A stretch of DNA of 64,000 nucleotides from Spirosoma montaniterrae (GTDB lineage: Bacteria > Bacteroidota > Bacteroidia > Cytophagales > Spirosomataceae), in the NCBI RefSeq assembly GCF_001988955.1, contig NZ_CP014263.1, forward strand, positions 2,480,001 through 2,544,000, in the 5' to 3' direction. Position 1 is the stretch's first letter. Every line of letters begins with the position of its first letter. Below are positions 4,926-61,897 of the stretch, piece by piece. Made by a program: the position numbers and the translations under genes. A model generated the notes under the pieces. The model was not told where the DNA came from, did not search any database, and was given only the letters and a program-made list of their open reading frames with translations.

Positions 4926-4943
4926 AATTTAGTGATGAACGAT

Positions 4944-5012
4944 GAGTGATGAACGATGAGTGATGAGCAGTGCTGTATGCGCCAGCTACTCATCACTCAT
5001 CGTTCATCACTC
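4944..5012. repeat. GATGAGTGATGA-family inverted repeat
   Basis: Arms 4944-4967 and 4989-5012 are perfectly complementary over 24 bp and are made of the repeated words GATGAGTGAT and GAACGATGAG. The left arm continues as extra word copies from 4931. The element fills the gap between the VWA gene start and the fabG stop. A second member of the family, sharing the word order but with a different loop, lies at 53511-53598. Confidence 0.88.
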
Positions 5013-5016
5013 ATCA

Positions 5017-5772: not shown

Positions 5773-5863
5773 AGTGAAAAATGCTAAGTGAAAAATGAAA
5801 AGTGGTTTGCTGTGAATGATACCGAGCGGTCATTTTTCACTATTCACTTTTCATTTTTCACTT
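5773..5863. repeat. GTGAAAA-family inverted repeat upstream of fabG
   Basis: Arms 5786-5804 and 5845-5863 pair perfectly over 19 bp (AAGTGAAAAATGAAAAGTG), with further imperfect pairing outside. It lies in the divergent gap between fabG and the phospholipase-like gene. It is the same family as 33908-33976, which likewise lies directly upstream of a start codon (cinA). The loop differs between the two copies. Confidence 0.85.
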
Positions 5864-17468: not shown

Positions 17469-17578
17469 GATGGAACACGGATTAAACAGATTGGACGGAT
17501 TTACACGGATGCGTATCGCTGATTGCGAGGACAAAAATCTGTGTTCATCTGTGACATCCGTATTATCCGTGTTCCATC
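17469..17578. repeat. AACACGGAT-family inverted repeat
   Basis: The outer arms GATGGAACACGGAT (17469-17482) and its complement ending at 17578 pair perfectly; inside, the words ACACGGAT, ACAGATT and CACGGATTTACACGGAT pair imperfectly with their complements. It lies between lpxL-like and ispG and its right arm runs up to the ispG promoter, so the -33 region of that promoter is repeat DNA. A minimal palindromic member of the same family is at 35229-35260 after cinA. Confidence 0.85.
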
Positions 17579-20382: not shown

Positions 20383-20937
20383 ATGGAAGTTGCGCTGTTG
20401 AGTCTGTTATTCATTCTGTATTTGACCATCCGCTACTACGTCGTTGATCACGATACCCCGACCGATAAAGATCAGAAACGGTTCCAGAAAGGTATCGAAA
20501 TGGTCAACAAACGGCAGTTTGATGAAGCGCATCGTTATTTTGACGAAGCCATCCGGCAGCACCCCAAATCGGCGGTGGCTTATGCGTACCGGGGCAAGTG
20601 CCAATTGGTGCAGGAGAATTATTATTCAGCCATTTATGATCTGACGCAGGCCATTAGCCGCGATAATACGCTGGCCGATTGTTACCTCGACCGGGGCATT
20701 GCCTACTACAAAACCGAAGAATATACCAACGCCTTCCGCGAGTTCGATAAAGCCGTTTGGCACTTCCGCGACGAACAGCCCGACGCCTACCGATGGCGTG
20801 CCCTCGCCCGCATTCAGGTTCGGCAACTGCCACAGGCCGAAAGCGACCTCCGCCGGGCCGTTGCCCTCGGCGACGAAAATTCGTTTCACATCCTGATGCA
20901 GCCGCCGTTTACGAGACCGGTGTATAATAAGTTGTAA
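20383..20937 (+). CDS. Membrane-anchored TPR protein
   Basis: 184 residues: one N-terminal membrane helix (ALLSLLFILYLTIRYYVV), then about four tetratricopeptide repeats (QFDEAHRYFDEAIRQHPKSAVAYAYRGK; NYYSAIYDLTQAISRDNTLADCYLDRG; EYTNAFREFDKAV). A protein-protein interaction scaffold facing one side of the inner membrane; partner unknown. The last two codons and stop lie in the GTTGTAAAG-family repeat word AGTTGTAAAG. Confidence 0.8.
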   Translation: MEVALLSLLFILYLTIRYYVVDHDTPTDKDQKRFQKGIEMVNKRQFDEAHRYFDEAIRQHPKSAVAYAYRGKCQLVQENYYSAIYDLTQAISRDNTLADCYLDRGIAYYKTEEYTNAFREFDKAVWHFRDEQPDAYRWRALARIQVRQLPQAESDLRRAVALGDENSFHILMQPPFTRPVYNKL

Positions 20938-21024
20938 AGTTGAAGGGTTGTAGGGTTGTAAAGTTGGCTGCCGCACCCACATTGAGGGCGGAGCAACTTT
21001 ACAACCCTATAACCCTTCAACTTT
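20936..21024. repeat. GTTGTAAAG-family inverted repeat between convergent genes
   Basis: Arms 20936-20966 and 20994-21024 are 31 bp and complementary with one mismatch; they are built from the words AGGGTTGTA and GTTGTAAAGTTG. The element overlaps the stop codon of the TPR gene and ends 12 bp before the stop of the convergent FAD oxidoreductase, so it could terminate both. No second copy of this family was found in the window. Confidence 0.9.
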
Positions 21025-21035
21025 ATAACTCTATG

Positions 21036-33907: not shown

Positions 33908-33976
33908 AGTGAAAAATGTAAAGTGAAAAGTGAAAAGATTTTAGGCTAATTCATTTTTCACTTTACATTTTTCACT
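33908..33976. repeat. GTGAAAA-family inverted repeat upstream of cinA
   Basis: Arms 33908-33929 and 33955-33976 are perfectly complementary over 22 bp and consist of the words AGTGAAAAATGTAA and AGTGAAAA; further unpaired word copies follow on each side up to 33984. It lies in the divergent gap between DUF4197 and cinA and ends about 10 bp before the cinA ATG. Confidence 0.88.
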
Positions 33977-36987: not shown

Positions 36988-37080
36988 ATTACACAGAGAT
37001 TCACAGAGGGAGGAGAGATACACGGAGTTAAAAAATATCTCTCTGTGAATCTCCCTTCCCTCTGTGAATCTCTGTGTTAC
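36988..37080. repeat. CACAGAG-family hairpin, copy 1
   Basis: Outer arms 36991-37011 and 37057-37077 pair perfectly over 21 bp (ACACAGAGATTCACAGAGGGA); inner parts pair imperfectly. It lies between tldD1 and tldE1. Words of the form ACAGAGATnCACAGAG define the family, whose seven members occur between 36.9 and 46.5 kb. Confidence 0.9.
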
Positions 37081-37093
37081 AACAAAAAAAATC

Positions 37094-38449
37094 ATGCTAA
37101 CCAAAGAAGAAGCCAAACGCATTATTGATAAAGTGCTGGCCTACGCCAAAGCCGACGAAACGGCGGTGTCGCTGACGGGCGGGCGCACGGGCAACATCCG
37201 CTACGCCCGCAACGCCGTATCGACCTCCGGCGAATCAGAAAACATGAGTCTGGCCGTAACATCGGTGTTCGGCAAACGGTCGGGGTCGGCCACCATCAAC
37301 GAGTTCGATGATGCGTCGCTCGAAAAGACCGTGCGTCGGGCCGAGGAAATTGCCCGGCTGGCCCCCGAAAATTCTGAATACATGCCGATGCTGGGGCCAC
37401 AGACGTACTTAGACACCAAAACGTATGCCGAAAGTACGGCCAAAATCGCCCCTGAATACCGCGCCAAAGCCGCTTTCGACAGCATTATGCCGTGCCGTGA
37501 GAAAAACCTGACCGCAGCGGGCTACATGGAAGATACCGCCGGTTTCACGGCCATCGGCAATAGTAAAGGGCTGTTTGGCTATAACCGGGAAACGAGCGTC
37601 GAATTCTCCGTGACGGTTCGCACCGACGACGGTTTAGGCTCCGGCTATGCCACCCGCGACGTGACCGACGTTAGCCTGCTCAACACCAAAAGCGCGACCG
37701 AAGTAGCCATGCAGAAAGCACGGGCGTCATCGGCTGCGCGGGCACTGGAGCCGGGCAAATACACCGTCATTCTCGAACCGGCGGCTTTGGTCTCGAACAC
37801 CGATGCGTCGCTGCTGGCGGCTATGATGGGGTCGATGGACGCCCGCAACGCCGACGAAGGTCGCTCGTTTCTGAGCAAGAAGGGCGGTGGCACCCGGCTC
37901 GGCGAGAAGCTGTTCGATGAGCGCGTAACTATCTATTCTGACCCAACCAACGCGCTGATTCCGAGTGCGCCGTTTGGGGGCGGAGGTGGTCGTTTTGGCG
38001 GGGGCGGTTCTGACGGTCGCCCGCAGGAAAAGATTACGTGGATTGAGAAAGGCGTGGTCAAAAACCTGTACTATTCGCGCTATTGGGCCGATAAGAAAGG
38101 CGTTCGGGCGGTTCCGGCTCCGGCGAGTTTTATCATGGAGGGCGGTACGCAGTCGTTGGCTGAGTTGATTAAAAGCACCGACAAGGGTATTTTAGTAACG
38201 CGGTTCTGGTACATCCGCCCCGTTGACCCGCAAACGCTGCTCTATACCGGTCTCACCCGCGACGGCACGTTTTACATTGAAAACGGGCAGATCAAATTTC
38301 CGGTCAAGAACTTCCGGTTTAACGAAAGCCCGGTTATTATGCTGAATAATCTGGAGGCTATGGGTCGCCCTGAGCGCATCGGGGGTAATTTGGTGCCGCC
38401 ATTGAAAATTCGTGACTTTACGTTTACGTCGCTGTCTGATGCTGTGTAA
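37094..38449 (+). CDS. TldE/PmbA-type protein, paralogue 1
   Basis: 451-residue partner of TldD: TldD/PmbA fold without the HExxxH motif, as expected of the non-catalytic or regulatory TldE subunit. Seen: GNIRYARNAVSTSGESENMSLAV, EPGKYTVILEPAA, NADEGRSFLSKKGGGTRLGEKLFDERVTIYSDP, GLTRDGTFYIENGQIKFPVKNFRFNESPV. A Gly-rich loop (GGGGGRFGGGG) interrupts the middle. ATG 37094 is preferred; the in-frame ATG at 37064 lies in the preceding repeat. No signal peptide, in contrast to its TldD partner. Confidence 0.87.
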   Translation: MLTKEEAKRIIDKVLAYAKADETAVSLTGGRTGNIRYARNAVSTSGESENMSLAVTSVFGKRSGSATINEFDDASLEKTVRRAEEIARLAPENSEYMPMLGPQTYLDTKTYAESTAKIAPEYRAKAAFDSIMPCREKNLTAAGYMEDTAGFTAIGNSKGLFGYNRETSVEFSVTVRTDDGLGSGYATRDVTDVSLLNTKSATEVAMQKARASSAARALEPGKYTVILEPAALVSNTDASLLAAMMGSMDARNADEGRSFLSKKGGGTRLGEKLFDERVTIYSDPTNALIPSAPFGGGGGRFGGGGSDGRPQEKITWIEKGVVKNLYYSRYWADKKGVRAVPAPASFIMEGGTQSLAELIKSTDKGILVTRFWYIRPVDPQTLLYTGLTRDGTFYIENGQIKFPVKNFRFNESPVIMLNNLEAMGRPERIGGNLVPPLKIRDFTFTSLSDAV

Positions 38450-38454
38450 ACTTA

Positions 38455-38900
38455 TTACACAGAGATGCACAAAGAAAAGGAGAGATACGCAGAGAGTAAT
38501 TTGACAGCTATTATCATTGGCAGAGCCATTGAGGTTCACAGGGCATTAGGGCCGGGACTGCTGGAATCAGCTTATCGTGACTGTTTAGCGTATGAACTCC
38601 AACTGGCAGGATTATATGTAGAACGCGAGAAAGCCCTGCCAATCGTTTACAAAGAAGTTCGGCTGGAACACGGCTACCGGCTTGATCTGCTCGTTGAAGG
38701 TGAGTTGGTAGTCGAGTTAAAGACAGTAGAAACGCTGACAGATGTTCATGCGGCCCAACTATTGACCTACCTGCGACTGGGACAGTTTCCGCTTGGTTTG
38801 CTCATCAACTTCCAGGTAAAAATGCTCCGCGATGGCATCAAACGCTTTTCTAATTTTTCTCTCCGAGAACCTCAATAAACCTCTGTGAATCTCTGTGTAA
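38455..38900 (+). mobile_element. Split CACAGAG-family repeat carrying a GxxExxY gene
   Basis: Left arm 38455-38474 and right arm 38881-38900 are complementary at 18 of 20 positions and have the family words (TTACACAGAGAT, CTCTGTGTAA). Instead of a short loop they enclose the GxxExxY gene, whose ATG lies in the left arm region and whose stop precedes the right arm by two bases. The other family copies in the window are the same arms with loops of tens of bases. This looks like the full-length form of the element (inference). Confidence 0.65.
38465..38878 (+). CDS. GxxExxY family PD-(D/E)XK nuclease-like protein
   Basis: 137 residues. The family-naming motif is seen in GPGLLESAYRDCL, after IIIGRAIEVHRAL; a nuclease-like core follows: RLDLLVEGELVVELKTVE, with the D...ExK acidic/lysine pattern of PD-(D/E)XK enzymes, and LLTYLRLGQFPLGLLINF. 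The function of GxxExxY proteins is not established. The first codons (MHKEKERYAES) and the end (SLREPQ) are encoded by repeat arms of the CACAGAG family. It sits between two tldD/tldE pairs on the same strand. Confidence 0.85.
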   Translation: MHKEKERYAESNLTAIIIGRAIEVHRALGPGLLESAYRDCLAYELQLAGLYVEREKALPIVYKEVRLEHGYRLDLLVEGELVVELKTVETLTDVHAAQLLTYLRLGQFPLGLLINFQVKMLRDGIKRFSNFSLREPQ

Positions 38901-38913
38901 CAACTTTAACTCT

Positions 38914-40554
38914 ATGAACCGCCGAGACTTTAATCAACTCCTTAGCATGGGCACCGCCGGGCTGCTGCTCCCATCGCTGCCTGCCTTTTCCAGACCCGTT
39001 GCGCCCGAAGCACTGCTCGAAACGGGCGTCGATATAGCCATCAAAAAACGCCTTGCCGATGCGGGCCTGAATGCAGCCAAAAGCCGGGGGGCAACCTATA
39101 CCGACGTCCGTATTGGCCGCTACCTCAACCAGTTTGTTGTTACCCGCGAAGACAAGGTGCAGAACATTGTCAACACCGAATCGTATGGTGTGGGCGTTCG
39201 GGTAATTGCCGATGGCTGCTGGGGCTTTGCCGCCGTAGTCGATGCCAAAAACGAAGCCGACGTAGCTAAAGCCGCCGATAAGGCCGTAGCCATTGCCAAA
39301 GCCAACGCCAAACTTATGAAAGAGCCGGTACAACTGGCTCCGCAAAAAGGCTTTGGCGACGTGTCGTGGAAGGCCCCTATTCAGAAAAACGCATTTGAGG
39401 TGCCCATCAAAGAAAAGGTCGATTTGTTGATGAGCGTCAACAGCGCGGCCTTGAAAAACGGTGCCAACTACATCAACTCGATTCTGTTCATGGTCAACGA
39501 GCAGAAATACATCGCCACCAGCGATGGCACGTATGCCGACCAGGACATTCACCGGATGTGGCCCCTCTTCAATGTTACGGCCATCGACCCAAAAACGGGC
39601 AAATTTGAAACGCGACAGGCTCTGAGCGCACCAATGGGCATGGGCTACGAATACCTGCAAGCCAACCCCACCGACAAAGTTACGGGCGTTACAACCCGCT
39701 ACAACCGGGGCTACGACATGCTCGAAGACGCCATTGCAGCCGCCAAACAGGCCCGCACCAAACATTCGGCCAAGTCGGTCGAAGCGGGTAAGTATGATTT
39801 GGTACTCGACCCCAGTCACCTCTGGCTCACCATTCACGAATCGGTCGGCCACCCGCTCGAACTCGACCGGGTGCTGGGCTACGAAGCCAACTTTGCCGGC
39901 ACCAGTTTCGCTACGCTCGACAAGTGGCAAACCAAAAATTTCAACTACGGCAGTAAGCTCGTAAATCTCTTCGCCGACAAAACGCAGGTTGGTTCGCTGG
40001 GGGCCGTGGGCTACGACGACGAGGGCGTGAAATGCAAGCAATGGGATCTGGTGAAAGACGGAACGCTGGTGAACTACCAGGCCATCCGCGATCAGGTACA
40101 CATCATTGGCGAGAACGAATCGCAGGGCTGCTGCTACGCCGATAACTGGAGTTCGGTCCAGTTCCAGCGCATGGCAAACGTGTCGCTGGCGGCTGGCAAA
40201 ACGCCCCTCAGCGTACAGCAGATGATTAAAGACGTGCAAAAAGGCATCTACATCATCGGCGACGGTTCGTTCAGCATCGATCAGCAGCGGTACAATTTCC
40301 AGTTTGGCGGACAGTTGTTTTACGAAATCAAAAACGGCGAAATCGTCGGGATGCTCAAAGACGTAGCCTACCAGTCGAACACGCAGGAATTCTGGAACTC
40401 GTGCGTTGCCATCTGCGACGAAAAAGACTACCGGCTCGGCGGCAGTTTCTTCGATGGAAAGGGCCAGCCCGCCCAATCGAGCGCGGTCTCGCACGGCTCC
40501 AGTACGACCCGGTTCAATGGGGTAAATGTGATCAATACAGCGAGAAAGATTTGA
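38914..40554 (+). CDS. TldD-type metalloprotease, exported paralogue 2
   Basis: 546 residues, strongly similar along its whole length to the protein at 35341-36984. The N-terminus MNRRDFNQLLSMGTAGLLLPSL is again a Tat-like signal; HESVGHPLELDRVLGYEANFAGTS carries the HExxxH zinc site. Differences are mostly surface changes (for example the mid segment after YEYL and the C-terminal CVAICDEKDYRLGGS). Arose by tandem duplication of a tldD-tldE pair. Confidence 0.88.
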   Translation: MNRRDFNQLLSMGTAGLLLPSLPAFSRPVAPEALLETGVDIAIKKRLADAGLNAAKSRGATYTDVRIGRYLNQFVVTREDKVQNIVNTESYGVGVRVIADGCWGFAAVVDAKNEADVAKAADKAVAIAKANAKLMKEPVQLAPQKGFGDVSWKAPIQKNAFEVPIKEKVDLLMSVNSAALKNGANYINSILFMVNEQKYIATSDGTYADQDIHRMWPLFNVTAIDPKTGKFETRQALSAPMGMGYEYLQANPTDKVTGVTTRYNRGYDMLEDAIAAAKQARTKHSAKSVEAGKYDLVLDPSHLWLTIHESVGHPLELDRVLGYEANFAGTSFATLDKWQTKNFNYGSKLVNLFADKTQVGSLGAVGYDDEGVKCKQWDLVKDGTLVNYQAIRDQVHIIGENESQGCCYADNWSSVQFQRMANVSLAAGKTPLSVQQMIKDVQKGIYIIGDGSFSIDQQRYNFQFGGQLFYEIKNGEIVGMLKDVAYQSNTQEFWNSCVAICDEKDYRLGGSFFDGKGQPAQSSAVSHGSSTTRFNGVNVINTARKI

Positions 40555-40564
40555 TTTTAAGAGC

Positions 40565-40653
40565 GTTGTTACACAGAGATACACGGAGAAGAAAGAGATT
40601 CACAGAGGTCTCTACGCATCTCTTCTTAGCTCTGTGAATCTCTGCGTAACAAC
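40565..40653. repeat. CACAGAG-family hairpin, copy 3
   Basis: Outer ends GTTGTTACACAGAGAT (from 40564) and ATCTCTGCGTAACAAC (to 40653) pair with one mismatch; the inner arms contain GAAGAAAGAGATTCACAGAG and its imperfect complement. Located between tldD2 and tldE2, the same relative position as copy 1 between tldD1 and tldE1. Confidence 0.85.
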
Positions 40654-42011: not shown

Positions 42012-42096
42012 GGATACAGAGATGTTTTTGGGACACAGAGATGCACCAAGAAGCACGGAGATACACGGAGGGTTTTGTGTATCTCCGTGTTACGTC
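42012..42096. repeat. CACAGAG-family hairpin, copy 4 (degenerate)
   Basis: Words ATACAGAGATG, ACACAGAGATGCACC and CACGGAGATACACGGAG on the left face GTGTATCTCCGTGTTAC on the right; the best stem is 13 bp (CACGGAGATACAC). The arms are unequal in length, so this copy looks decayed or partly deleted. It precedes an Uma2 gene fragment. Confidence 0.75.
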
Positions 42097-42109
42097 GAGT
42101 TAGTTCCCC

Positions 42110-42181
42110 GTGCTCTCGACTCGCGTTAACGAACTGCTCGAAGCCCCACGACGCTAAACTCGTCATCGAGCGGGCGCAGGC
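42110..42181 (+). pseudogene. 5' fragment of an Uma2-family gene
   Basis: About 72 bp closely matching the start of the Uma2 gene at 42469 (both read CTCTCGAC.CGCGT, CTGCTCGAAGCCCC and AAACTCGTCATCGAGCGGGC). One extra base in GCCCCACGACGC shifts the frame to a stop. Similarity ends after GCGCAGGC. It is a remnant of a second Uma2 copy, separated from the intact one by a small gene. Confidence 0.8.
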
Positions 42182-42232
42182 AAACGCAAACCAGTCCAGT
42201 TCCGTTATTGAGTTGAGTCAATCAATCACATT

Positions 42233-42460
42233 ATGAACACATTAACCATCGACCAGATAAAAGCACAATACCCGGATGAATGGGTACTGGTGGGCAATCC
42301 GAGTTTGTCGGGGGCTACGGTTTTGGGCGGCATTGTCATCGACCACAGCAAAGACAAACGGGAGATTGCATACCGCCAGCCTAACTGGCGGGCGCAGTTT
42401 CAGTCTGCCATCACCGTATTCACGGGCGATAAACCCAAAAACCGTAAGTTCTGGCTTTGA
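42233..42460 (+). CDS. Small conserved hypothetical protein
   Basis: 75 residues: MNTLTIDQIKAQYPDEWVLV then GNPSLSGATVLGGIVIDHSKDKREIAY and FTGDKPKNRKFWL. A compact alpha/beta-looking protein with no recognised domain or signal. Eight bases upstream of the Uma2 start, so the two are probably co-transcribed. Flanked by the Uma2 fragment and the Uma2 gene. Real coding is supported by the clean start, even amino-acid composition and spacing. Confidence 0.65.
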   Translation: MNTLTIDQIKAQYPDEWVLVGNPSLSGATVLGGIVIDHSKDKREIAYRQPNWRAQFQSAITVFTGDKPKNRKFWL

Positions 42461-42468
42461 CAAATCCA

Positions 42469-43134
42469 ATGCTCTCGACCCGCGTACATGACCTGCTCGA
42501 AGCCCCCGACGCCAAACTCGTCATCGAGCGGGCACAGGCTATTTTGGCCGATGAAGCCAACCGTCGCCGAGCATTCCGTGAATGGCTACGCGACGATGTA
42601 AAAGCCGAATTCATCAACGGCGAAATCATTATGCACTCGCCCGTCAAACGGCGGCATTTAGACGCTACTCAAAATTTATTGATACTCCTTCGGGTTTATG
42701 TTCACAAACATGACCTGGGAGCGGTCGATTCCGAGAAAGCTCTTGTGGGGCTAACCCGCAACGATTACGAACCGGACATCTGCTTCTGGAACGCCGAAAC
42801 AGCCGCTTCGTTTCAGGACGACCAAATGGAACACCCCGCCCCCGATTTGATTGTTGAAGTACTATCGAAAAGTACCACGGGCCGCGACCGAGGAATAAAG
42901 TTTGAAGATTATGCAGCCCACGGCGTGCTGGAATACTGGATTATCGACCCGGTTCGCAAATCAGTAGAGCAATACCAGTTAGACGAACCGACAATGGCGT
43001 TTGCATCGGCGGCAGTGCTGTACGATGACGATACGCTATCGGCTCTCACTGTACCCGGCTTTCAGATTCCGGTGCGGGCCATTTTCGAGAAACAAGCCAA
43101 TATGGATGCGCTACAGGCCATTCTGGCTGCATAG
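42469..43134 (+). CDS. Uma2 family endonuclease-like protein
   Basis: 221 residues of the Uma2 (DUF820) family, a PD-(D/E)XK-fold group: EFINGEIIMHSPVKRRHLDATQNLL, then EPDICFWNAE and PAPDLIVEVLSKSTTGRDRGIKFEDYAAHGVLEYWIIDP, holding the D...ExLS core. Biological function unknown; frequent in multicopy in environmental bacteria. ATG 42469 chosen over a TTG at 42457. Confidence 0.88.
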   Translation: MLSTRVHDLLEAPDAKLVIERAQAILADEANRRRAFREWLRDDVKAEFINGEIIMHSPVKRRHLDATQNLLILLRVYVHKHDLGAVDSEKALVGLTRNDYEPDICFWNAETAASFQDDQMEHPAPDLIVEVLSKSTTGRDRGIKFEDYAAHGVLEYWIIDPVRKSVEQYQLDEPTMAFASAAVLYDDDTLSALTVPGFQIPVRAIFEKQANMDALQAILAA

Positions 43135-44271: not shown

Positions 44272-44356
44272 TTGTTACACAGAGATTCGCAGAGAAAAAA
44301 GAGATGCACAGAGTCTCTGCGAATCTCTTTTTTCTCTGCGAATCTCTGTGTAACAA
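44272..44356. repeat. CACAGAG-family hairpin, copy 5 (best preserved)
   Basis: Arms 44272-44305 and 44323-44356 are exact complements over 34 bp, starting TTGTTACACAGAGATTCGC and containing AGAGAAAAAAGAGAT. The 17-nt loop is itself family words. It lies between the DUF4159 gene and moxR; the right arm ends 8 bp before the TTG start of moxR. Confidence 0.93.
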
Positions 44357-45339: not shown

Positions 45340-45354
45340 CTCAGAGATGTTCTG

Positions 45355-45452
45355 TAACACAGAGATGCACCGAGAAAAAGAAGATACGTAGAGACATTGT
45401 CAATAATCTCTGTGAAACTCTTTATTGTCTCTGTGTATCTCTGTGTCACAAA
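45355..45452. repeat. CACAGAG-family hairpin, copy 6
   Basis: Outer ends TGTAACACAGAGAT (45355-45368) and ATCTCTGTGTCACA (45439-45452) pair with one mismatch; inner segments (GCACCGAGAAAAAGAAG against CTCTTTATTGTCTC) pair poorly. Between moxR and the DUF58 gene. A stray word copy (CAGAGATGTT) precedes it. Confidence 0.82.
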
Positions 45453-45472
45453 ATGTATCAGTACCCCAAAAA

Positions 45473-46315: not shown

Positions 46316-46320
46316 TTTTT

Positions 46321-46419
46321 TGTTACACAGAGATACACCAAGAAGCACGGAGATACACAGAGAAATTTTAAACAAAACTCCGTGTATCTCTGTGTCTCCT
46401 CTGTGCATCTCTGTGTCAT
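46321..46419. repeat. CACAGAG-family hairpin, copy 7
   Basis: Words TTACACAGAGATACACC, AGAAGCACGGAGATACACAGAG on the left face CTCCGTGTATCTCTGTGTCTCC and CTCTGTGCATCTCTGTGTCA on the right. Pairing is good in register blocks with a few mismatches. Lies between the DUF58 gene and the BatA-like gene and ends 5 bp before the latter's ATG. Confidence 0.85.
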
Positions 46420-46424
46420 AATTT

Positions 46425-53499: not shown

Positions 53500-53510
53500 A
53501 GGTTTGGAGT

Positions 53511-53598
53511 GATGAGTGATGAACGATGAGTGATGAGTTCTTTCGCGTCAGCGAACCGCTACGGCGGACCGTTCATCACTCATCGTTCATCACTCATC
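53511..53598. repeat. GATGAGTGATGA-family inverted repeat, copy 2
   Basis: Arms 53511-53536 and 53573-53598 are exact complements over 26 bp with the words GATGAGTGAT and GAACGATGAG, as in the copy at 4944-5012. The centre holds two small hairpins (TTCGC-GTCA-GCGAA and CCGC-TACG-GCGG). It separates ndh and bshA and includes the bshA stop codon. Confidence 0.92.
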
Positions 53599-54716
53599 GC
53601 TAATATAACTCGTTCGTAGTGTGCTTCGTAGCGGGGCAAAACGCGCGACAGTTCAAATTCTTTGGCACGGGCAAGAGCATTCTCCTGAAAGATTGGCAAC
53701 TGCTCGTCCGACAATACAAACAGGGCGTTACGTACCATATCGTCAACGTCGCCTACGTTGCTCATAAAACCCGTTACACCCTGTATATTCAACTCTGGCA
53801 AGCCACCGACGTTCGACGAAATAACCGGCACCTGACAGGCCATTGCTTCGAGGGCTGCCAGGCCAAAGCTCTCATTCTCAGAAGGCATCAGAAACAAATC
53901 GGCTACCGACAGCACCTCCTCTACGGCGTCTAACTTCCCCAGAAACCGCACCTGATCGTAGATACTCAGATCGCGCACGAGCCGTTCGATGCGGGCGCGT
54001 TCGGGACCGTCGCCCACGAGCAGGAGTTTGGCAGGGATTTGTTGCTGCACATGATAGAATGTCATCACGGCGTCGTCTATACGCTTCACACGTCTGAAAT
54101 TTGACGTATGCACAATCAGTTTTTCGCCGTTAGGACAGATCGCTTTCTTAAAATGATCTTTCTGTTGTCGTTTAAACCGATTCAGGTCAATGAAGTTTGG
54201 AATTACCTCAATCTCGCGATGGACGTTGAAATGCTTGTACGTATCCCGCCGTAAATCTTCAGATACCGACGTAACCCCGTCCGATTCGTTAATGCTGAAC
54301 GTTACAACCGGCTCATACGACGCATCTTTGCCGACGAGTGTAATATCAGTTCCGTGCAGCGTAGTAACAACCGGCACATTACGCCCCTGCGACCGCAGAA
54401 TCATTTTCGCCATATAAGCTGCCGATGCGTGCGGAATAGCGTAGTGAACGTGCAGAAGGTCAACATCTTCATTCAGAACCACATTTACCATCTCGCTGGT
54501 CAGGGCCGATTCGTAAGGCGCGTACTGAAACAGCGGATACGACGGAATGTTGACTTCGTGGTAGTAAACGTTTTCGTTGAAAAAATCGAGCCGGGGCGGC
54601 TGCTGATAGGTAATAAAGTGAATTTGGTGGCCGTTTTTCGCTAACGCTTTGCCGAGTTCAGTAGCAACAACGCCACTTCCCCCAAACGTAGGATAGCACA
54701 CAATACCGATTTTCAT
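53580..54716 (-). CDS. bshA: N-acetyl-alpha-D-glucosaminyl L-malate synthase
   Basis: 378-residue GT4 glycosyltransferase, first enzyme of bacillithiol synthesis. The N-terminus MKIGIVCYPTFGGSGVVATELGKALAKNGHQIHFITY and HVHYAIPHASAAYMAK, TLHGTDITLVG, and C-terminal PSENESFGLAALEAMACQVPVISSNVGGLPE are close to BshA. ATG 54716 chosen over a longer frame start at 54899. The last residues (MSDER) and stop are encoded by the hairpin repeat arm, so the C-terminus differs from the ancestral one. Confidence 0.9.
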   Translation of the reverse strand: MKIGIVCYPTFGGSGVVATELGKALAKNGHQIHFITYQQPPRLDFFNENVYYHEVNIPSYPLFQYAPYESALTSEMVNVVLNEDVDLLHVHYAIPHASAAYMAKMILRSQGRNVPVVTTLHGTDITLVGKDASYEPVVTFSINESDGVTSVSEDLRRDTYKHFNVHREIEVIPNFIDLNRFKRQQKDHFKKAICPNGEKLIVHTSNFRRVKRIDDAVMTFYHVQQQIPAKLLLVGDGPERARIERLVRDLSIYDQVRFLGKLDAVEEVLSVADLFLMPSENESFGLAALEAMACQVPVISSNVGGLPELNIQGVTGFMSNVGDVDDMVRNALFVLSDEQLPIFQENALARAKEFELSRVLPRYEAHYERVILAMSDER

Positions 54717-55797: not shown

Positions 55798-56169
55798 ATG
55801 AAAACAGAAATCCTCTCCCGCAAAGCCGACTATATCGGCATCACCGGCTCCGTCCTGTGCGTTGTTCACTGTTTGATCACCCCTGTTTTGCTGATGACAA
55901 CGGCATTGCTACAAAATGAGCAATTGCGCTTTGGCTATCTGAGTTTAGATTATGTTTTCATCGGCGTTAACGTCATCGCCGTTTATTTTGCCACCCGGCA
56001 CCACGCATCGCCCGCTATCAAACGCGCGCTGTGGAGTTTTCTGCTGATTTTTGCCGCAGCTATTGTGCTTGAAGACGTAAACGAAGCGTTTGAATACCTC
56101 GGCTACGCAGCATCAGCCGGTTTGGTTATTACCCACCTGATAAACATTCGGCAGCATCAAAAGGTCTGA
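55798..56169 (+). CDS. MerC domain membrane protein
   Basis: 123 residues, four predicted membrane helices. DYIGITGSVLCVVHCLITPVLL carries the CxxxHC-type metal pattern of MerC-family proteins in the first helix. Bacteroidota members are often linked to zinc or other metal homeostasis and not to mercury. ATG 55798 chosen over a start at 55732 because of the promoter box at 55781. Followed by a 33-bp perfect inverted repeat. Confidence 0.82.
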   Translation: MKTEILSRKADYIGITGSVLCVVHCLITPVLLMTTALLQNEQLRFGYLSLDYVFIGVNVIAVYFATRHHASPAIKRALWSFLLIFAAAIVLEDVNEAFEYLGYAASAGLVITHLINIRQHQKV

Positions 56170-56173
56170 ACTG

Positions 56174-56264
56174 TGATTCGTCGGATTATGCTGATCGACT
56201 CTGATTGCCGCCTTCGGCGGTAAATCAATAAAATCAGAGTCGATCAGCATAATCCGACGAATCA
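56174..56264. repeat. 33-bp perfect inverted repeat between convergent genes
   Basis: Arms 56174-56206 and 56232-56264 are exact complements over 33 bp; in the centre is a small hairpin CCGCC-TTC-GGCGG. No second copy was found in the window. It lies between the convergent MerC and dihaem peroxidase genes and reaches the latter's stop region, so it can terminate both; words such as GATTCGTCGGATT and GATCGACTCTGATT again look repeat-like. Confidence 0.92.
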
Positions 56265-56268
56265 TGGT

Positions 56269-57372
56269 TCAGAATGTAGGTGGCCCCAGCCGTCTGTCTG
56301 AAATGTACTCTGTATCCGTCAGCGTTCGGAGAAAGGCGATAATCTGTTGTTTTTCAGTGACCGTGAGCGAAATGCCCGGTTTGCCCGTTTGGTTTTGACG
56401 CAGCAGCGGATCGAGTTCGGGAACGTCCTGTAGGTTTGTTGTATAGTGATCGAGCACCTGATCGAGCGTCCAGAATCGGCCATCGTGCATGTAGGGCGGA
56501 GTGCGGTCAACATTCCGCAGACTCGGTACTCTGAACATGTATTTGTCTTCGGGTCGAAGCGTGACCAGCGAACGGCCTTCGTCTTTGTTGAGGTCGCGGC
56601 TCAGGCCATTGTTCCGAAAGCGTTGGTCGGTAAACAACTCACCCGCGTGGCAACCCGCGCACTTCTGTTTGAACAACGTCAGGCCGCTCAGTTCGCCCGG
56701 CGTCAACTCGCCCCCGGCTTCTTTTCGCACGTACTTATCGTACCGGCTGTTGGCCGACACCATCGTCAGCATGAACTGCGACATAGCTTTCAGGAATCGC
56801 GCCGATGTAATGGAATCCGAACCGAAGGCAGCCTGAAACAAAGGTCTATATCTATTACCTTTCCGCAGCGCATTCAGTAGAGCGGGCATGTTATGACCCA
56901 TTTCGACCGGGTTTTCGATAGGATTGATTGGCAGCAAATCGAGATCGACAACGCCCCCATCCCAGAAGAATGAACTGTAAAAAGCTGCGTTCTGTACTGC
57001 GGGTACGTTACGGGTGCCGATTTTATCGTTAATACCGTGGCTCAGTGCATGATCGGTATGCCCGAAGGCCGCACTTTGCTGATGGCAAAATGCACAGCTA
57101 ACGGTGCCGTTGGCCGATAACGCGTCGTCGTAAAACAACGCCCGGCCCAGTGCTACACCTTCAACCGTGAGCGGGTTATTCGAAAATTTATAGATCGGCT
57201 CCGGGAAGTTAGCCGGTTTTTTCCACGGAAATGGTGTGGGCTTATACTCAACGGGCTGCGACGGGTCGGGCTTAACCGGCCCTACCCCACCCGATTCATT
57301 AGGCTGGCACGACACCACACAGGCAAACAGGCCCGCACTTGCCAATAGTCCGATGAGCTTCCAGCGGTGCAT
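56269..57372 (-). CDS. Dihaem cytochrome c peroxidase, MauG/MbnH type
   Basis: 367-residue lipoprotein (signal to about residue 22 with lipobox cysteine in CVVSC). Two haem c motifs: CAFCHQQSAAFG and CAGCHAGELF. Further conserved segments: ALGRALFYDDALSANGTVSC, GTRNVPAVQNAAFYSSFFWDGG and PSLRNVDRTPPYMHDGRFWTLDQVLDHY. The neighbouring MbnP gene suggests it belongs to the MbnH group, which oxidises a tryptophan of MbnP to kynurenine for copper binding (family knowledge); a plain peroxide-scavenging role is also possible. Last gene of the minus-strand operon. Confidence 0.85.
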   Translation of the reverse strand: MHRWKLIGLLASAGLFACVVSCQPNESGGVGPVKPDPSQPVEYKPTPFPWKKPANFPEPIYKFSNNPLTVEGVALGRALFYDDALSANGTVSCAFCHQQSAAFGHTDHALSHGINDKIGTRNVPAVQNAAFYSSFFWDGGVVDLDLLPINPIENPVEMGHNMPALLNALRKGNRYRPLFQAAFGSDSITSARFLKAMSQFMLTMVSANSRYDKYVRKEAGGELTPGELSGLTLFKQKCAGCHAGELFTDQRFRNNGLSRDLNKDEGRSLVTLRPEDKYMFRVPSLRNVDRTPPYMHDGRFWTLDQVLDHYTTNLQDVPELDPLLRQNQTGKPGISLTVTEKQQIIAFLRTLTDTEYISDRRLGPPTF

Positions 57373-61805: not shown

Positions 61806-61897
61806 ACCCCACCCCACCCCCTCCCCGTTAGGGAGGGGCTAAGCATAGATGCTTCCAGCGGAAGCCCCTCCCTAACGGGGAGGGGTTGGGGTGGGGT
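61806..61897. repeat. GGGGAGGGG-family inverted repeat, copy 2
   Basis: Arms 61806-61840 and 61863-61897 are complementary over 35 bp with one mismatch and are the same sequence as the arms at 2541-2732. The 22-bp centre contains AAGCAT-AG-ATGCTT and has no relation to the 120-bp centre of copy 1. It lies between the lipoprotein gene and the SCO gene on the same strand, in the SCO leader. Confidence 0.93.

Follow-up and report, generated by a model that had tools for sequence, protein, structure and literature searches.

RAYT is the HUH/Y1 tyrosine transposase of repetitive extragenic palindromes, and some homing endonucleases, such as I-Ssp6803I, are PD-(D/E)XK enzymes. In the REPIN-RAYT system, which is the subject of PMC3116915 and PMC2817692, one gene is typically flanked by its own palindromic repeats and accompanied by many gene-less palindromes, and the families are genome-specific. 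The intervening sequences (IVS) of 23S rRNA are presented in PMC4990558 as one small gene enclosed by inverted repeats, which pair into a long stem, with a sporadic distribution. Furthermore, heptamer repeats such as TAACTGA (PMC4679880) and GGGAATC or GGGGATT (PMC4692102) are described in portions of these papers as tandem 7-nt units between genes, for which the cause is unknown, and inverted pairs of them as common in Xanthomonas.

Here we report on an element in the window, i.e. the whole stretch of 64,000 nucleotides from Spirosoma montaniterrae that was analysed, in which a GxxExxY gene stands between two hairpin arms. Like the REPIN-RAYT system, it comprises a gene flanked by, and dispersed with, palindromic repeats. 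However, the gene belongs to the PD-(D/E)XK type and not to the HUH/Y1 transposases, the arms of GxxExxY and of the sister four-helix-bundle elements consist of several direct CRCRRAG or heptad units, and GxxExxY with arms occurs in 12 phyla. Compared to the IVS, the window element lies between genes for PmbA- and TldD-like proteins instead of in an rRNA helix, it encodes GxxExxY and not S23p/PF05635, the host genome carries many gene-less hairpins, and the arms bear a periodic, protein-specific code. With MITEs it shares the terminal inverted repeats, the gene-less elements beside a gene-bearing copy and internal deletion of the gene, but the gene-bearing copies looked at encode GxxExxY or a four-helix-bundle protein and no transposase. 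A homing endonuclease gene resembles it in that a nuclease gene is replaced between alleles at a fixed site (one cyanobacterial site, 11 genomes), yet the GxxExxY element has its own inverted repeats and dispersed gene-less copies. Cas4- and lambda-exonuclease-like nucleases gave a weak sequence match to GxxExxY only. The published heptamers, as far as the cited portions go, resemble the arms of the TIGR02436 elements, which are mostly made of 7-nt tandem units.

Judged by analogy, the cassette appears to work like REPIN-RAYT and, in its four-helix-bundle branch, like the rRNA IVS, yet it lacks a defining feature of each. Among open-licence papers, preprints set apart, we found no account linking GxxExxY to repeats or hairpins; GxxExxY is named in PMC8934634 and PMC12085832 and PF13366 in PMC9756366, and the arm words came up solely in an unrelated paper on fish eDNA. 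The GxxExxY and four-helix-bundle hairpin cassettes point to an undescribed kind of selfish DNA element.

The element in the window and its counterparts in the genome

An earlier note on this DNA had described one GxxExxY gene enclosed by hairpin arms, which starts in the left arm region and whose stop codon ends 2 bp short of the right arm. Inverted-repeat search and profile matches agree with this description, and the arms given there, 38455-38474 and 38881-38900, are the core of longer ones:

38447..38474, plus strand: left arm of CRCRRAG-type units (inverted-repeat search and flank alignment)
38465..38878, plus strand: GxxExxY gene, predicted PD-(D/E)XK nuclease fold (TIGR04256, PF13366, alignment, structure model)
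38881..38908, plus strand: right arm, an inverted copy of the left arm (inverted-repeat search)

The arms are 28 nt long, 86% complementary and spaced by 406 nt, and on the left side a further unit, CGCAGAG, reaches about 38497 (by eye). The ATG at 38465 lies inside the left arm and the stop codon occupies 38876-38878; the neighbours are a PmbA-like gene (37064-38449) and a TldD-like gene (38914-40554). The protein belongs to TIGR04256 (E 2.3e-43; 147.3 bits, curated cut-off 35) and PF13366, PDDEXK_3 (E 4.2e-41; 140.4 bits, cut-off 22). Residues D74, E84, K86 and Q98 are conserved in the alignment, the active-site residues D74, E84 and K86 being invariant in 19 of 19 rows, and the predicted structure (pLDDT 91) matches PD-(D/E)XK structures. 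With the D...ExK motif in the alignment and the core fold in the model, it is a putative PD-(D/E)XK nuclease; to our knowledge, no activity has been reported for GxxExxY.

The genome contains three more GxxExxY copies, 38-55% identical to the window copy, and four TIGR02436 four-helix-bundle genes. Inverted repeats flank all eight genes, each set being of different sequence. A plain arm-gene-arm layout is seen in four of the eight (L001, the window copy L002, L006 and L007), while a complete hairpin stands on one side of L003, L005 and L008 and on both sides of L004. The domain check covered L006-L008, i.e. three of the four sister genes without L005, and all three match PF05635 (23S rRNA-intervening sequence protein) and TIGR02436 (four helix bundle protein), which provides the link to the IVS.

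Arms and arm codes across bacteria

At other loci, arms were called where the highest-scoring inverted repeat between left and right flank reached at least 14, each flank comprising 250 nt outside and 20 nt inside the end of the family match; windows of the same shape moved by 700-1000 bp served as control. The loci were taken from the top of the family matches, with a limit of 30 per search and of 80 in the multi-phylum one, and are not a random draw. It must also be mentioned that the CRCRRAG motif and the cut-offs (score 14, autocorrelation 0.5) were picked after the first loci had been seen. The cyanobacteria were examined after this choice and with the same settings, the exception being the CRCRRAG count, for which the GxxExxY loci were read on both strands and the four-helix-bundle loci on the strand of the left arm.

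The reading in the earlier note presupposed that GxxExxY genes elsewhere usually possess arms, and this is what we found: flanking inverted repeats occur at 113 of 141 testable GxxExxY loci compared to 1 of 329 shifted windows. The proportions are 23/33 loci versus 1/128 shifted windows in the home family, to which the organism of the window belongs, 61/78 versus 0/142 in the multi-phylum set and 29/30 versus 0/59 in cyanobacteria. The multi-phylum set comprises 80 loci of named records from 14 phyla, of which 78 were testable (L153 and L165 were dropped for flanks below 100 nt), and shows arms in 11 phyla, the single loci of Chlorobiota, Methanobacteriota and Cyanobacteriota being without; together with the cyanobacterial set, GxxExxY and arms co-occur in 12 phyla. 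One gene, L186 and L263, has no arms at score 14 and was counted once in each of its two sets. The four-helix-bundle loci behave similarly, with arms at 28/34 in the home family (0/134 shifted windows), 22/30 over phyla (0/56) and 24/29 in cyanobacteria (0/57; L301 was dropped for flanks below 100 nt).

Not every locus conforms to the plain layout. A score of 14 was not reached at 28 of the 141 GxxExxY loci, and the 113 loci with arms comprise 93 with a single arm on each side, 16 with a complete hairpin on one side and 4 with complete hairpins on both; this sorting included all sets but the cyanobacterial four-helix-bundle one. Some GxxExxY genes may therefore simply be situated between hairpins.

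The arm motif is specific to the protein family. At least two CRCRRAG units are present in 93 of 113 GxxExxY elements versus none of 74 four-helix-bundle elements (Fisher 8e-34), and heptads, among elements with arms, in 2 of 113 versus 56 of 74. The spacing of CRCRRAG units is in excess at 8-12 nt, strongest at 9 and 10, with a deficit at 7. Outside cyanobacteria, 68 GxxExxY elements have the motif, and in 65 of them its units point inward. In the four-helix-bundle arms the period is 7, with an autocorrelation of 0.65 versus 0.32 in shuffled sequence (z 28) in the home family and z 29 over phyla. Some GxxExxY arms are built on other units (ACGGATT, ACAGGATT, GATTCGTCGGATT), and by eye the period of some four-helix-bundle arms seems to be 8 or 9. 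Compared to the proposal in the earlier note, the system is broader, since it includes a second, unrelated protein family with the same layout and its own arm code. The difference in period, about 10 versus 7 nt, together with the unrelatedness of the proteins predicts that each protein binds its own unit.

Exchange of gene and arms at one cyanobacterial site

GxxExxY occupies one orthologous site in 11 cyanobacterial genomes. The flanks of L274 and L281 are 97.5-98% identical up to the element, whereas the gene is 77% identical and inverted; likewise, L275 and L277 share 94% in the flanks versus 70% in the gene. The gene data reject the flank grouping L274+L281 (AU p 7.9e-6) and the flank data reject the gene grouping L274+L277+L283 (AU p 4.7e-22), with the groups named after the similarities had been seen. 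Five orientation changes are needed on the flank tree and two on the gene tree. Four-unit arms are common to L274, L277 and L283, and three-unit arms are found in L281 and others; since the unit number sorts with the gene at this orthologous site, the arms go with the gene and not with the flanks. Gene and arms can thus be transferred as a unit, which occupies the site in both orientations, and the earlier proposal that arm-gene-arm is a unit holds over 12 phyla as well as at this site. The exchange itself could be ordinary recombination.

The reverse order of events, in which existing host hairpins receive the gene in their loops, in the way that 23S rRNA helices have their tetraloops replaced by IVSs, has a model in the IVS elements that carry a four-helix-bundle gene in rRNA helices (PMC4990558). 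However, the arms have the same motif in different phyla and go with the gene instead of the site, which assigns the arms to the element and already disfavours an insertion into host hairpins; we regard it as very improbable.

Our preferred reading, which we consider probable, is that GxxExxY and its two arms represent a minimal, transposase-free selfish cassette of about 0.45 kb, the spread of which would be driven by the nuclease. The cassette would consist of terminal inverted repeats of two to four CRCRRAG-type units around one small PD-(D/E)XK nuclease gene. The nuclease would bind the arm units, perhaps in an extruded hairpin, and cut; host repair would then copy the cassette into the broken site, amounting to a homing-like replacement, and at times, more rarely, copy the hairpin into new intergenic sites. 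Gene-less hairpins would be served in trans, as MITEs or REPINs are. If true, this would be a class of mobile elements without transposase, recombinase or reverse transcriptase, and two widespread protein families whose function is unknown would gain a role that can be tested, and very many intergenic hairpins one proposed cause. We see an even chance for the wider reading, namely that transposase-free selfish hairpin elements form a class present throughout bacteria, where GxxExxY and the 23S-IVS-type four-helix-bundle protein would each read a private arm code (units of about 8-12 nt with the core CRCRRAG versus 7-nt heptads) and so drive cassette homing and the spread of gene-less hairpins. 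The wider reading would explain large intergenic repeat sets, possibly including the published heptamer repeats of cyanobacteria, Beggiatoaceae and Xanthomonas.

Gene-less hairpins in the window and the genome

The earlier count of seven copies of the CACAGAG family, six of them empty hairpins, was reproduced at 36.98-46.42 kb, one of the six being degenerate. The hairpin near 42.06 kb retains a perfect core of 13 nt and stays below score 14 in the hairpin scan. The empty hairpins of the window, none of which has an assigned strand, are listed here; for those assigned to other gene-bearing elements of the genome, the best match to an own element is followed by the best among 179 foreign ones:

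36991..37077: empty CACAGAG hairpin (inverted-repeat search, hairpin scan)
40565..40653: empty CACAGAG hairpin (hairpin scan)
about 42033..42097: degenerate empty CACAGAG/CACGGAG hairpin (core arms 42054-42066 and 42077-42089; outer limits by eye)
44272..44356: empty CACAGAG hairpin (inverted-repeat search, hairpin scan)
45350..45453: empty CACAGAG hairpin (inverted-repeat search, hairpin scan)
46320..46421: empty CACAGAG hairpin (inverted-repeat search, hairpin scan)
17469..17578: empty hairpin matching the arms of GxxExxY gene L003, ACACGGATT units (29.5 versus 17.5)
56165..56273: empty hairpin matching the arms of GxxExxY gene L004, GATTCGTCGGATT (24.5 versus 13.0)
20930..21030: empty hairpin matching the arms of four-helix-bundle gene L005, GTTGTAAAG units (24.5 versus 12.5)
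4941..5015: empty heptad hairpin matching the arms of four-helix-bundle gene L007, TGAGTGA (23.0 versus 12.5)
53508..53601: empty heptad hairpin matching the arms of L007 (24.0 versus 13.5)
5773..5862: empty heptad hairpin matching the arms of four-helix-bundle gene L006, AGTGAAAA (20.5 versus 20.0, not decisive)
33908..33976: empty heptad hairpin matching the arms of L006 (18.0 versus 15.0)

Over the single 5.8-Mb contig of the genome, the pattern CRCAGAGNNNCRCAGAG was matched 72 times and the reversed control pattern 0 times, so the CACAGAG repeats are not due to chance. Hairpins with an inverted-repeat score of at least 16 in the window and five 20-kb genome stretches (164 kb), 31 in total, were compared with the arms of 187 gene-bearing elements, 8 from this genome and 179 from others. 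An own element was the best match for 12 of the 31 hairpins, where 1.3 are expected (binomial 2.5e-9), 19 of the 31 matched an own element at 15 or more, and all eight own elements have at least one matching empty hairpin in the 164 kb. For four of the five scored CACAGAG hairpins, the better fit was to a foreign GxxExxY element and not to the local one; the motif is shared, so their match does not single out the local element.

Strong hairpins on CCCCTCCCCGTTAGGGAGGGG at 2551-2722 and 61806-61897 of the window had no match among the 187 elements and probably form a further hairpin family, without a partner gene among the elements compared. In addition, the start of the gene at 42457-43134 is apparently repeated in broken form about 360 bp upstream (42110-42182 versus 42469-42539; by eye), where it adjoins the degenerate CACGGAG hairpin.

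Gene presence, arm abundance and modes of spread

The earlier note had also expected the hairpins to be less abundant where the gene is absent, and this was found in cyanobacteria and, more weakly, in the home family. An excess of CRCRRAGNNCRCRRAG over the reversed control of at least 40 occurs in 19 of 38 cyanobacteria with GxxExxY versus 1 of 156 without, and an excess of at least 8 in 25 of 38 versus 6 of 156. Restricted to genomes of at least 4 Mb, the latter becomes 25/37 versus 5/29 (p 5.6e-5, a guide only, as the genomes are related). The gene-bearing cyanobacteria are those above the curated cut-off, 38 of 40 with a match among 194 genomes, and in 13 of the 38 the excess remains below 8. 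In 46 of the 80 multi-phylum gene-bearing genomes, the arm pattern has 2643 matches versus 272 for the control, and it exceeds the control in 39 of the 46. The narrower CRCAGAGNNNCRCAGAG gave 20/42 genomes with the gene versus 3/19 without in the home family (p 0.023, again a guide only for related genomes).

Arm repeats are also present in the gene-less genomes G008, G235 and G204. G008 has 14 arm matches and no GxxExxY gene, and its congeners G040 and G056 contain GxxExxY remnants only, which offers recent gene loss as an alternative reading for G008; on our reading, hairpins would persist for a while after gene loss.

These gene-less genomes are among the facts in favour of a rival view, namely that the hairpins are spread by something else, by template switching in replication or by a transposase in trans, and that the gene is a stable passenger profiting from the arms. 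Genes between complete hairpins are consistent with it, as are two further results. Firstly, no target-site duplication was seen at 134 gene-bearing elements of both families pooled (mean 2.00 versus 1.84 +- 0.11 shuffled; fuzzy ends could hide a weak signal), which also separates the cassettes from MITEs. Secondly, in the cyanobacterial genome G257 five near-identical four-helix-bundle copies (L293, L325, L328, L329 and L330) ride inside a MITE with the ends ACTGACGTTACGCA ... TGCGTAACATCAGT, four of the five with 5-bp target duplications (by eye). However, a passenger gene explains neither the family-specific arm code over phyla (93/113 versus 0/74) nor the tracking of the gene by arm abundance, and for G008 the remnants in the congeners make recent gene loss possible. 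On balance, we consider the passenger view unlikely, though the strongest of the alternatives. It also counts against the cassette reading that a comparison of 50 cyanobacterial loci, with the 60 best alignments read, showed no recent wave of almost identical GxxExxY genes at new sites, and that the other three copies of the Spirosoma genome are as distant from the window copy as stated above. The outermost bases of the G257 MITE read TAACTGA, i.e. the heptamer of PMC4679880, perhaps by coincidence.

History and decay at the PmbA-TldD junction

Of 36 genomes from the genus, 35 were analysed for the TldD/PmbA array (G082 was left out), and some arrays are cut by contig ends. GxxExxY is present at a PmbA-TldD junction in 11 of the 35. 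Ten of these genes are nearly full-length by tblastn, including that of G039 with an internal stop, and one, L120, is internally deleted with both arms kept (score 15.0), while L121 has the full gene. Internal stops also occur in L051, L067 and other copies. At the junctions of L133 and L137 the last GxxExxY residues are still encoded (by eye), and their close relative L139 has a longer gene, which is also interrupted by an internal stop; L135 retains a short CRCAGAG remnant (by eye). Arm scores at these three are weak (L133 6.5, L137 8.5, L135 7.0), though RNA folding draws a stem for L133 and L137. GxxExxY at this junction is common to many species of the genus, mostly decaying and not newly arrived.

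In relatives, the gene between the arms has been lost by internal deletion; we are less sure that such deletion yields long-lived hairpins. Hence, the earlier claim that the hairpins are gene-less derivatives stands in part: the deletion in L120 and the empty matches for all eight own elements agree with it, the weak arms of L133, L137 and L135 less so, and mobilisation by the nuclease-like protein is a candidate mechanism. Together with the complete hairpins beside some genes, these weak arms weaken the cassette reading and strengthen its passenger rival.

The junctions also bear on a possible host function, in which the hairpins would be retained intergenic structures (transcript ends, mRNA protection, supercoiling) that GxxExxY processes as DNA or RNA. 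The hairpins do lie between co-directional genes, and the orthologous empty hairpins L125, L126 and L127 at the TldD-PmbA junction differ in sequence yet are largely paired (scores 40.5, 18 and 25), as selection on pairing or palindrome correction would produce; moreover, GxxExxY has a weak fold likeness to tRNA-splicing endonucleases (Foldseek E 0.05-0.3). But the same junctions in other genomes of the genus carry hairpins of unrelated sequence, often heptads, or none, so that hairpins turn over quickly, several gene copies contain internal stops, and cassettes are exchanged between strains. A host function therefore appears rather improbable to us.

The TldD/PmbA gene pairs themselves are tandemly multiplied to differing extents over the genus (L110-L144), with several members broken into pieces in L130. 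A small palindrome, CCGCCGAAGCGG or a close variant, lies within one arm of several CRCRRAG hairpins (L119, L121, L133 and L137; by eye), as if a REP-like unit had entered them.
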